From contig CP129482.1 in the NCBI GenBank assembly GCA_030583925.1, forward strand, positions 1,488,001-1,552,000: 64,000 nt of DNA, read 5' to 3'. Made by a program: the position numbers and the translations under genes. Shown here one piece after another: positions 14,741 to 43,343 of the stretch. Under the pieces are notes generated by a model. That model made no database searches. It was not told the origin of the DNA and saw only the letters and a list, made by a program, of their open reading frames with translations. Origin of the DNA: Anaerolineales bacterium (GTDB taxonomy: Bacteria; Chloroflexota; Anaerolineae; Anaerolineales; Villigracilaceae). Each line of letters opens with the position of its first letter. Within the stretch, counting starts at the first letter, position 1.

Positions 14741-16348
14741 TTATTTCGCCCCCTCAGGTTGGACGAATCGCAATAGCCATTCACCCGCTGAATCTTCTGT
14801 CACGGATGTTTCGGGCGTGACGACGATGACCCACGTGTGACCAAGTTTGAGCGGAAATAATTTGTCCTCGTCCCGATATAAAAATCGAATCGGTTTGCGA
14901 AAGCCTGTTTGAATTTCTTCTTCACTGAGTTCCGTACTCCAGCGGATGTCGTATTTCATCCCATCACGAAATAAAATCGCAGCGCCAGATAAATTCGCTT
15001 CGAGATGAATGTCCAAGTTGGTCGGGGAAACCACATCGTGCTTGGCAAACAGGACGATCACGTTTTCAAATTGCAGTTGACGGTTTGTCAGGCGATCCAC
15101 TTCGGGGTGCAAAACGCCCGCCGTGTCTTCGCTGGCGTCGTCAACAAAGCGCCAATAACTTTGTGAGAGGGCGTCAAAGCGCCAGCCCGATTGATTCAAA
15201 TAGGCGATGTACACGTGCAAATCATTTGCAGTCACGTCGCCTGCGGGCGGTTCGCTCGAAAACAGATTGCTTGCATAATCAATTTTTGTCTTCGGCTGTT
15301 TGCTGTTTTGCGCGAGCGTTTTCAACTCTTCGATCTCGAGCATGTACCCGCCGCCTTGAATGTCGTGCGTCACGAAGAAGCATTGCGGAAGTTCCACCAG
15401 CACTTCGGGCGAGGCGAACGCGTAGATCAAACACGAGTCGGTGAACATGGCGGCGATGTCTGCATACACGAGTCGCCCCGAGCGGATGGGTCCCACTTTG
15501 GGTTCGGGGAGAGTCGCAGGCGGGAGAATGTCGCTGGACTGAATCAAGCCGATGTCCAGATCGAAGCGGGATTCGACGACGGTCACCGCGTCGGACCAGC
15601 CTGAGGCTGAATCCACGTCGGAATCCTGATTCGCATCCCCCGCGTTTTTCTGCGAAAACTCCATCTGTGGAGGTTTCGCAACCGCGACGAAATACGTTCC
15701 AGCGGACACGTTGAATCCGTAATAGCCGTTGCTGTCGGTCGTGGTCTGCTGGCGGAGATTTTGATTTGCATCGTAGAGGTTGACGCACACGCCGCCGACG
15801 CCGCGCTCCCATGCGTCCTGCGTGTTGTTTTGATTGGCGTCGAGCCAGATGCGGTTGCCGAGAATCGAATCGGTTTGCAAGAAAATACTACGGCGCACAT
15901 CGCATCCGCCAGTGACGGGCGATTCGGGCGCGGGGAATTCGCCGTAAAACGTGGTGAGGAAACGCGTCGCGCCTTCGGTGATGTAAATCTCGAACACGAG
16001 CGGCGAAAACGACAGTCCCGCCTGCGGGCGCGCAGTGACGGGGAAATGCGAGATCGAAACTAACAGCGCGGGAAGATTCAGCAGAGATGGGTTTTCGACT
16101 TGCAAGCCCGTGAGCGGATTGATGACGATTGCGGGTTCAGGCGTTTGTGTCGCGGTGGGAGGGATGGTCGTCGGTTCGGGGGTGTTTGTTGGCGGCGGTG
16201 TCCTTTGACTCGAAGTGCAACCGATGAGAACAAATAAAAGCATCGTCATTGCGAGTCTTCGAGAAGCAATCTCCCTCGATGTGTTGGGGATTGCTTCGGC
16301 GGGCGAACGCCGCCTCGCAATGACGGGGTTAGGTTTTTTCAAATTCAT
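14741..16348 (-). CDS. DUF3048 lipoprotein with an inserted SdrD-B-type domain
   Basis: 535 residues in the long form. A hydrophobic stretch ends at FVLIGC, a lipobox. The N-terminal codons, including the arginine-rich part of the signal peptide, are written by a CATTGCGAG-family repeat (16245-16325); ATG at 16249 is the alternative start. After a Pro/Thr linker, the YerB-like DUF3048 domain begins at INPLTGLQV and runs to TRFLTTFYGEFPAPE. There it is interrupted by about 120 residues of an SdrD-B (prealbumin-like) domain (GNRIWLDANQNN, DSNGYYGF) and resumes at VGPIRSGRLVYADIAAMF. The C-terminal half, FRDGMKYDIRWSTEL onwards, is also DUF3048-like. Surface-exposed; function unknown. Confidence 0.75.
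   Translation of the reverse strand: MNLKKPNPVIARRRSPAEAIPNTSREIASRRLAMTMLLFVLIGCTSSQRTPPPTNTPEPTTIPPTATQTPEPAIVINPLTGLQVENPSLLNLPALLVSISHFPVTARPQAGLSFSPLVFEIYITEGATRFLTTFYGEFPAPESPVTGGCDVRRSIFLQTDSILGNRIWLDANQNNTQDAWERGVGGVCVNLYDANQNLRQQTTTDSNGYYGFNVSAGTYFVAVAKPPQMEFSQKNAGDANQDSDVDSASGWSDAVTVVESRFDLDIGLIQSSDILPPATLPEPKVGPIRSGRLVYADIAAMFTDSCLIYAFASPEVLVELPQCFFVTHDIQGGGYMLEIEELKTLAQNSKQPKTKIDYASNLFSSEPPAGDVTANDLHVYIAYLNQSGWRFDALSQSYWRFVDDASEDTAGVLHPEVDRLTNRQLQFENVIVLFAKHDVVSPTNLDIHLEANLSGAAILFRDGMKYDIRWSTELSEEEIQTGFRKPIRFLYRDEDKLFPLKLGHTWVIVVTPETSVTEDSAGEWLLRFVQPEGAK
16245..16325. repeat. Interspersed repeat, CATTGCGAG family
   Basis: Starts GTCATTGCGAGTCTTCGAGAAG and ends CCTCGCAATGACG. Read on the minus strand it supplies codons 8 to about 35 of the DUF3048 lipoprotein, including the ATG of the short-form start. 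Confidence 0.85.
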
Positions 16349-41382: not shown

Positions 41383-41854
41383 CTCAGGTCGGTCGGGCGA
41401 TCGCGGTGGCGCGTTGACGCCATCGAGGAAAGTCCGCACTCCATAGAGCACGGCGTCGGATAGTCCCCGGGGCGGGGAAGCCTCCCTTGTGGAGCGAACC
41501 TGCCGGAAAAGGGCCACAGAAACAAACAGCCGACCCTCACCCCTGCACCCCTCTCCTTTTTAGAGAGAGGGACTGGGATGAGGGTGGTCATGGTGAAAAG
41601 GTGGTGTAAGAGACCACCGGCGTTTGCAGTAATGCAGATCGTCAGGTAACCCCCGCCGGGAGCAAGGCCAAGCAGGGACGAAGCCATCTGCGGATGGCGG
41701 GAGGCGGCTCGTCTTCATACGCATCCGTTCACGCGGTGAGCGGATCAGTCCCGGGTAGGCTGCATCGAGCGGCGCGGCGACGCGCCGCCCAGAGAGATGA
41801 TCGCACATGCGGAGCGATTCGCAGGACAGAATGCGGCTTATAGACCGACCTGAG
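41383..41854 (+). ncRNA. rnpB: RNase P RNA (type A) with an inserted REP-like hairpin
   Basis: The RNA component of RNase P, which matures tRNA 5' ends. Ends pair as helix P1: CTCAGGTCGGTC with GACCGACCTGAG. Conserved cores are present: GAGGAAAGTCCGCACTCC near the 5' end, GAAACAAACAGCCG, GGTGAAAAGGTG, GTAAGAG, GGAGCAAGGCCAAGCAGGG and, at the 3' end, ACAGAATGCGGCTTATAGACC. A GC-rich hairpin of the REP-like family (41533-41585) forms the tip of a variable helix in the specificity domain (P12 region by comparison with E. coli). Total length is about 472 nt, longer than usual for type A. Confidence 0.95.
41533..41585. repeat. REP-like element within rnpB
   Basis: ACCCTCACCCCTGCACCCCTCTC pairs with GAGAGGGACTGGGATGAGGGT. 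The same family occurs at 27009-27042 and in kynU. Confidence 0.85.
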
Positions 41855-41866
41855 GCGGCTCATCAA

Positions 41867-42223
41867 ATGAATCATCGAAACGAAATAGAAGCCGCCCGCG
41901 CGATGCTCACGAAGGTTCTTCAACACGCGCGCGAGCATGATGCGGCGAAGGTCAATCATCTTCATATCGCCATCGGCGAAATTGCAGAACTCGATCAAGA
42001 TCTGATTTTGGCGCACTGGCGCGACCTCAGCAAAGGCACGCTCGCGGAATCGGCGCAATTACATTTCCGAGCGATCGCCGCCGACGCGCAGTGCATGGCA
42101 TGTTTCAAAAAATATCATCCCGAGGGCGGAGAGATTCGTTGCCCCTATTGCGGAAGTTACGGAGCGAAAATATTATCCGGCGAGGAGTTTTACATTGAAT
42201 CCATTGAGACAGAAATTAAATAA
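41867..42223 (+). CDS. hypA: HypA-like nickel metallochaperone
   Basis: 118 residues. The zinc site CMAC...CPYC (Cys76, Cys79, Cys92, Cys95) and IAIGEIAELD match HypA/HybF, which delivers nickel to hydrogenase or urease. The usual N-terminus MHE, whose His2 binds nickel, is replaced by MNHRNE with His at position 3, so metal delivery may be altered. No hydrogenase or other hyp gene is in the window. The ATG at 41867 lies 13 nt after the end of rnpB; a longer frame from 41807 would lie inside the RNA gene. Cotranscription with rnpB is possible. Confidence 0.75.
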   Translation: MNHRNEIEAARAMLTKVLQHAREHDAAKVNHLHIAIGEIAELDQDLILAHWRDLSKGTLAESAQLHFRAIAADAQCMACFKKYHPEGGEIRCPYCGSYGAKILSGEEFYIESIETEIK

Positions 42224-43343
42224 AAAAATCCATGTCATTGCGAGGCGGGTCGAAGACCCGACGAAGCAATCTCCTCGTGTTGGTTGGAGATTGCTTCGGA
42301 CTATCGTCCTCGCAATGACAATGCTTTCTGGATGCAACCTCCCCGCCGCTTCAACCCCGACGCCCGACCTGTTCGCCACTCTTCAAGCGTCCACGCCCTC
42401 CGGCTTTACCCCTCCCGCCGCGACGGAGCAAATCATCGCGACCCCTGATTTCAATTTTGCAACCGCCACCTTCACCGCCATTCCTCAAAATACGATTCCC
42501 TCGCCGTCCCCGTCCGATCAATTGACAGGCAAAATCGTTTTCACGTGCCAAGTAAACAAAGTGCAAGCCTCCGACCAAATTTGCATCATCAATGCGGACG
42601 GTTCGGGATTCCGTCAATTGACGAGCGATAACGTTCGTCATTACTATCCTTCCTTGTCGCCCGATGGTCAAAGCGTGTTGTACTCCGCGTTCCGCGAACA
42701 AAATGTGTACGAAATTTATGAAATGAACTTGAACAGCGGAAACGTGAAGCGACTTACCAACCGCCTCGGCGTTTCCAATGCGCCGGAAGTATCGCCGACC
42801 GGCGAATCCATTGTGTTCATGCGCGGCAACCCAAACACGCAACAGAATCAAATCTGGGTTATGAAGAGAGATGGGGATGACCCGGCAAACGTTCCGCAAG
42901 CCCTCGGCTGGGATCCGACCTGGTCGCCGGATGGAAAATTAGTCCTGTTCGCCTCCGACCGCGATGGAGGCGTGCAGTTGTTCACGGTCAGCCTGAAAGG
43001 GAGCGCGATCAAGAAGGTGTCGAATCTGCCGTCCATTCGGGGAAGAAGCGATTGGTCGCCCGACGGTTCGTTCATCGTCACCTATTCCGGCGAGCCGTGG
43101 AAACGTGAAGTCTACATCATGAGCGCGGACGGGTCGAACGCGCGTCAACTCACGCCGAGCGGAGGCAATAGTCAAGGTCCGTCAATCTCACCCGATGGGC
43201 AGTGGGTTGTTTTCACTGCATATTTCGATCATTATGGCGACGATCACGGGTGCGAGATTTACATCATCCGCACAAACGGAACCGACCTGCGACGATTAAC
43301 GAACAACAGTTATTGCGATTACCAACCGCGCTGGGGTCCGTGA
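42195..43343 (+). CDS. TolB-like beta-propeller lipoprotein with repeat-encoded signal peptide
   Basis: 382 residues in the long form. The lipobox is LSGC. The hydrophobic core in front of it (TIVLAMTM) and the upstream basic region are encoded by a CATTGCGAG-family repeat (42233-42320). ATG at 42195 overlaps hypA by 29 bp; a TTG at 42291 would give a 15-residue signal peptide MLRTIVLAMTMLSGC. After a Thr/Pro linker, WD40/TolB repeats (LSPDGQSVLYSAF, WSPDGKLVLFASDRDGG, SPDGQWVVFTAYFD) fill residues about 110-380. Probably a surface scaffold or ligand-binding propeller. Confidence 0.75.
   Translation: MNPLRQKLNKKIHVIARRVEDPTKQSPRVGWRLLRTIVLAMTMLSGCNLPAASTPTPDLFATLQASTPSGFTPPAATEQIIATPDFNFATATFTAIPQNTIPSPSPSDQLTGKIVFTCQVNKVQASDQICIINADGSGFRQLTSDNVRHYYPSLSPDGQSVLYSAFREQNVYEIYEMNLNSGNVKRLTNRLGVSNAPEVSPTGESIVFMRGNPNTQQNQIWVMKRDGDDPANVPQALGWDPTWSPDGKLVLFASDRDGGVQLFTVSLKGSAIKKVSNLPSIRGRSDWSPDGSFIVTYSGEPWKREVYIMSADGSNARQLTPSGGNSQGPSISPDGQWVVFTAYFDHYGDDHGCEIYIIRTNGTDLRRLTNNSYCDYQPRWGP
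42233..42320. repeat. Interspersed repeat, CATTGCGAG family
   Basis: Starts TGTCATTGCGAGGCGGGTCG and ends CCTCGCAATGACA. GAAGCAATCTCC and GGAGATTGCTTCGG form the inner stem. Read on the plus strand it supplies most of the signal peptide of the lipoprotein. Confidence 0.88.

Follow-up and report, generated by a model that had tools for sequence, protein, structure and literature searches.

How can a dispersed palindromic repeat lie between the start codon and the lipobox of a gene whose product is, by prediction, still exported? The question is raised by one locus of the 64,000-nucleotide (nt) stretch of DNA analysed here (the window, to which all coordinates refer), which comes from a 3.97-Mb Anaerolineales-type genome. 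At this locus a CATTGCGAG-family repeat stands directly before the lipobox LSGC of a TolB-like lipoprotein gene. A first interpretation, made from these letters only (the sequence-only reading), proposed that the repeat had been exapted as the signal peptide. We hold it very probable that a palindrome resembling a miniature inverted-repeat transposable element (MITE) or a repetitive extragenic palindrome (REP) entered, in frame, the signal-peptide region of a PD40/TolB-like lipoprotein gene that already existed and the product of which is predicted to be exported still.

An in-frame repeat in the signal-peptide region

The gene (42195 to 43343, + strand) is an open reading frame (ORF) of 382 amino acids with a predicted signal peptide of 46 residues, and its TolB-like character is borne out by a PD40 match (PF07676, E 1.7e-28). 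As the sequence-only reading had seen, the repeat stands in frame before LSGC: an imperfect palindrome (42230 to 42320, + strand) lies between the upstream start and the lipobox. It is recognised by its inverted repeats (42226-42245 with 42308-42327, and 42262-42274 with 42286-42298), by its predicted fold and by its copies elsewhere in the genome. The + frame from 42195 stays open across the repeat into the PD40 protein, reading ...RLLRTIVLAMTMLSGC with the lipobox included. The codon at 42195, formerly given as ATG, is in fact TTG (42195 to 42197, + strand). It is the most likely start: it is common to the four repeat-bearing species described below, and repeat-free relatives start at or near this site. 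A Shine-Dalgarno-like GAGGAG (42182 to 42187, + strand), retained in most relatives which have hypA upstream, precedes it with a spacing of 7 nt, so that the 3' end of the upstream hypA-like gene contains both the Shine-Dalgarno sequence and the start codon of the lipoprotein gene.

Read from this TTG, the N-terminus is MNPLRQKLNKK-IHVIARRVEDPTKQSPRVGWRLLRTIVLAMT-MLSGC, of which the central part IHVIARRVEDPTKQSPRVGWRLLRTIVLAMT is encoded by the repeat. The claim that the repeat supplies both the basic region and the hydrophobic core must therefore be divided. What the repeat does encode is a basic linker and the larger part of the hydrophobic h-region (in TIVLAMTMLSG, 42300 to 42332, + strand, the residues TIVLAMT belong to the repeat); MLSG lies outside it, and the native N-terminal n-region MNPLRQKLNKK lies upstream, which means that the repeat is not the sole supplier of basic residues. 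The lipobox cysteine (42333 to 42335, + strand) is Cys47 counted from TTG 42195.

The same element is abundant around the locus and beyond it. The window contains 11 occurrences of CATTGCGAG where 1.17 would be expected, a ninefold excess. Complete palindromic copies of the pattern number 46 in the genome, and their lengths cover all three residues modulo 3. The element is thus a dispersed palindrome which can fold into a long stem-loop; the strand at the target locus has a predicted fold of -56 kcal/mol (z = -7.5). When all repeat ends of this genome were ranked by hydropathy, the copy at 42233 came fifth out of 92. A text search with the repeat 9-mer returned only unrelated primer and gene sequences.

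Orthologs with and without the repeat

We compared the 5' end of the gene with that of relatives lacking the repeat, as the sequence-only reading had proposed. Genomes are labelled G000, G003 and so on, comprising the source genome (G000) and its relatives; orthologs were drawn from 18 genomes of the genus, 17 of which had an alignable 5' end. The repeat is present in four of these (G000, G010, G012 and G013) and absent from the other 13. Nine repeat-free orthologs have hypA upstream, and their signal peptide begins within the 3' end of hypA, at this site or close to it; that of G003, for example, is the ordinary signal peptide MNPSKQRNNIGLISTIFIMFLIAGC. Since repeat-free orthologs carry ordinary signal peptides at the same site, the repeat entered an existing signal peptide, between its native n-region and its native lipobox. 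Hence exaptation as a signal peptide is an accurate description in so far as an in-frame repeat now encodes linker and core, and an inaccurate one in so far as the signal peptide existed before, with start, n-region and lipobox all native.

The close relative G017 has neither hypA nor the repeat, and an rnpB-like sequence stands directly upstream of its TolB-like gene. In the tree, G017 pairs with G000 at weak support (67%), and G010, G012 and G013 form the neighbouring clade; because of this placement, the simplest reading, though not a certain one, is a single older insertion followed by loss in G017. The signal peptide of the G017 gene (L032) also differs: MTKRLPPLCLLLFLVGC.

After the insertion the frame was conserved. 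In the four repeat-bearing species the distance from the TTG to the repeat is 38, 26, 26 and 26 nt, the length of the repeat is 88, 91, 91 and 46 nt, and the distance from the repeat to the cysteine codon is 15, 21, 21 and 21 nt, each of the three being constant modulo 3. The coding frame is open in all four, and both alternative frames contain stops in all four. The mature protein is under purifying selection: among these species dN/dS (the ratio of nonsynonymous to synonymous substitution rates) is 0.06-0.09 in the mature region, at dS of 0.2-1.1. With such ratios at dS up to 1.1, the gene was functional long after the insertion.

Proposed mechanism and points against it

We propose that the native Shine-Dalgarno sequence, the TTG start in the hypA 3' end, the n-region and the lipobox would all have remained in place after the insertion. 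Translation would run from TTG 42195 through the repeat, the basic-then-hydrophobic 3' arm of which would serve as linker and most of the core, because this arm reads (R)LLRxxxLAMT and is free of stops in this one frame. The chain would then be exported through Sec and lipidated at Cys47 under a signal peptidase II signal; a signal peptidase II is encoded in the genome (PF01252, E 9.3e-33). We infer start usage, export and lipidation of the TolB-like protein from these features. If translation starts at 42195 or 42291, export would depend on residues of the repeat. Such insertions may be tolerated because signal peptides need only basic and then hydrophobic residues, and selection against loss of export would then maintain the frame.

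For the lipobox we applied pattern PS51257 and its side rule: the core of the pattern requires six uncharged residues before the lipobox cysteine, and the side rule places this cysteine 15-35 residues from the start. Three of the four repeat-bearing TolB-like signal peptides pass the core (G000, G012 and G013). Several observations do not sit easily with our proposal. The fourth ortholog, that of G010, has an arginine inside the h-region (LAMTRLLISGC) and fails PS51257. The repeat-bearing h-regions are also less hydrophobic (best 9-mer 1.8-2.6, against 2.7-3.2 in the repeat-free ones), and a cysteine at position 47 makes a longer signal peptide than is typical. The cases in other genes, given below, came from searching with this same pattern, and in the deacetylase gene of G010 (L168) and of G013 (L167) there is no in-frame ATG, GTG or TTG between the upstream stop and the lipobox; a non-canonical start, a start within the upstream gene and decay are candidate explanations for these two. 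The weaker cores of repeat-bearing signal peptides argue for tolerance first, rather than for an insertion which was favoured from the outset.

Alternative explanations

The repeat might instead be retained for an effect of its RNA or DNA (attenuation of hypA-lipoprotein expression by a hairpin, an influence on mRNA stability, binding of a protein), its coding role being a by-product. The great stability of the hairpin speaks for this, as does the identity of the repeat between species (0.82 for G000/G010 and 0.91 for G010/G013, against a synonymous difference of about 0.5-0.6), which suggests constraint at the DNA level or conversion. We nevertheless consider it unlikely: most relatives do without the repeat, and in G012 the palindrome core is gone but the coding frame and the hydrophobic end survive, the sequence reading MKRLNKEQHVVARRLLRAIALAMTFLLLSGC, a clean predicted lipoprotein signal.

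Slightly less probable still is a start at the TTG inside the repeat (42291 to 42293, + strand). In that case a short signal peptide of 14 residues (MLRTIVLAMTMLSG-C) would take its start codon, n-region and core from the repeat, and the frame upstream would be irrelevant. The codon and its frame are retained in all four species, the deacetylase genes of G000, G017 and G012 have the same TTG-CTT-CG in frame, and a signal peptide of 14 residues, with the cysteine at position 15, fits the length rule of PS51257. However, this TTG has a GGAG only 1 nt upstream, and the predicted fold leaves no base of either unpaired, while 42195 has a good Shine-Dalgarno sequence and a conserved TTG, and the frame upstream of 42291 is conserved as well. 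We rejected the ATG codons at 42315 and 42321 as starts, as almost nothing of the n-region would be left and the first of them is ACG in G013.

That the insertion broke the signal peptide of a gene now decaying, with a frame open by chance, is very improbable, since the weaker h-regions and the arginine of G010 would have to be set against a dN/dS of 0.06-0.09 and a frame preserved through several length changes.

Recurrence in other lipoprotein genes

Returning to the insertion of a repeat into an existing signal peptide, we found the same repeat end, in the same ..LAMT.. frame, before the lipobox in at least seven lipoprotein families of this and related genomes: PD40/TolB-like, DUF3048, polysaccharide deacetylase, M23, FGE-sulfatase, G5-domain and one without family assignment. 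In the source genome, three of the 46 complete copies continue in frame as far as a lipobox (TolB-like, polysaccharide deacetylase and DUF3048/SdrD). As a control on the frame, we considered the hits of the whole genus: of 17 hits in the LAMT frame, 7 continue into lipoprotein genes, and of 12 in the RND frame, 2 continue into long ORFs that both lack lipoprotein features; the third frame is always stopped by TGA. The in-frame hits G005 C71, G017 C12, G000 1375805, G001 C158, G017 C36, G021 C8 and G112 C66 were set aside for an early stop or the lack of lipoprotein features.

The second case of the window is a DUF3048/SdrD-like lipoprotein (14741 to 16348, - strand; PF17210, PF11258, PF17479, supported by its orthologs) with the signal peptide MNLKKPNPVIARRRSPAEAIPNTSREIASRRLAMTMLLFVLIGC, in which a repeat of the same family (16247 to 16322, - strand) is read in the ..LAMT.. 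frame. Its ATG sits within the 3' end of an upstream HIT-like gene. Orthologs hold other palindromic inserts at the same position, of GTGACTGTCAC type in G012 and of GTACCGCGACATT type in G001 and G007, and for this reason palindromic elements seem to find a general refuge in signal-peptide regions where genes adjoin closely. The 5' ends L201, L210, L211 and L206 of DUF3048 orthologs show differing palindromic or other inserts at the signal-peptide position. A further copy of the repeat lies beyond the stop codon of the DUF3048 lipoprotein (from 14720 on).

The polysaccharide deacetylase, preceded by a gene which we take from its C-terminal sequence to be coaX-like, carries the repeat in five species (G000, G017, G010, G012 and G013), always in frame and with differing inner stems; three orthologs are clearly without it (G003, G005 and G006, of MKKIFILTLGTVFLIASC type). 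In G012 a reading that begins at the repeat's own ATG covers the whole signal peptide (MSLRDPRSGAKQSSANRRLLRRTIVLLATT-SVILGC). Among the copies at this locus (L165-L169) the inner stems vary between species and the outer arms are nearly identical. This suggests conversion or replacement among repeat copies.

M23 lipoproteins carry the repeat in G007 and also in G000, where it is entered from the opposite end of the element; the M23 peptidase lipoprotein of the source genome (L247, about 1.07 Mb) has an apparent GTG start at the 5' end of a half-repeat and reads VSLRGVARSATTKQS... in another frame. The lipoprotein without family assignment carries the repeat in G004 and G006. Two further cases come from other genera of the family: a G5-domain lipoprotein in G105 and, in G031, an FGE-sulfatase lipoprotein whose ATG is preceded by AGGAGG. 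At L269:1013 and on the minus strand of L270, the G5-domain and FGE-sulfatase signal peptides are built from the same repeat, and MRLFRGALAPLAALAMT-LLLSAC of L269 seems almost wholly derived from it.

Repeat DNA thus seems to have been re-used repeatedly as predicted export signals. We put forward more tentatively, as a possibility we would not favour over its negation, that the CATTGCGAG family has repeatedly furnished working signal peptides: several unrelated lipoproteins across Anaerolineales genera would independently have recruited its 3' arm (LLRxxxLAMT) or, in some cases, the entire element, read from the 5' ATG that it carries itself (MSLRG...).

Upstream neighbours

Upstream of the TolB-like gene lie rnpB, which encodes the RNase P RNA (41385 to 41856, + strand; Rfam RF00010, 221.6 bits), and the hypA-like gene (41867 to 42223, + strand; PF01155, E 5e-23, from the ORF list). 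The mechanical ORF start of the latter at 41807 would overlap rnpB, hence the likely start at 41867. The Rfam scan found no family at the repeat, the RNase P RNA being the only match nearby.

Comparison with known systems

Genes found with and without the repeat are natural before-and-after pairs, which bear on how signal peptides arise and how much change they tolerate. They suggest that pre-adaptation to membrane targeting can reside in one reading frame of a dispersed repeat. At such loci, gene-calling software may place start codons wrongly or lose N-termini.

The predicted TolB-like signal peptide resembles those of signal peptidase II substrates in having an n-region, an h-region and the lipobox LSGC; it differs from the usual ones by its length of 46 residues, its repeat-encoded linker and its weaker hydrophobic core. 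In-frame palindromes in proteins and a repeat-built signal peptide are already known, and the idea is not new. Rickettsia palindromic elements (RPE; Ogata et al. 2000, reviewed in PMC2229807), the model case of in-frame palindromic repeats, are described as palindromes of about 100-150 bp found in frame in conserved protein genes and translated. By this description they are like the Anaerolineales palindrome, which is also in frame and translated through in a protein gene. The same account has RPE inserted in many gene types, whereas all supported cases here concern predicted lipoproteins, in which the repeat encodes N-terminal sequence, mostly in one frame. Delihas 2007 (PMC2759123) described the RU-2/Yersinia palindromic sequence in YPO1552, one predicted signal peptide built from a repeat, the related proteins of other genera having unrelated signal sequences (PMC2759123). 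The open-access literature searched yielded no case of a single repeat family that recurs in one frame in several lipoprotein families and has repeat-free orthologs at the corresponding loci; recurrent use by one repeat family across lipoprotein families is what is new. RU-2 concerns one main predicted exported protein of enterobacteria, with no orthologous insertion site frame-tested across diverged species, whereas here one family enters at least seven lipoprotein families, and for several of them repeat-free orthologs exist at the same locus.
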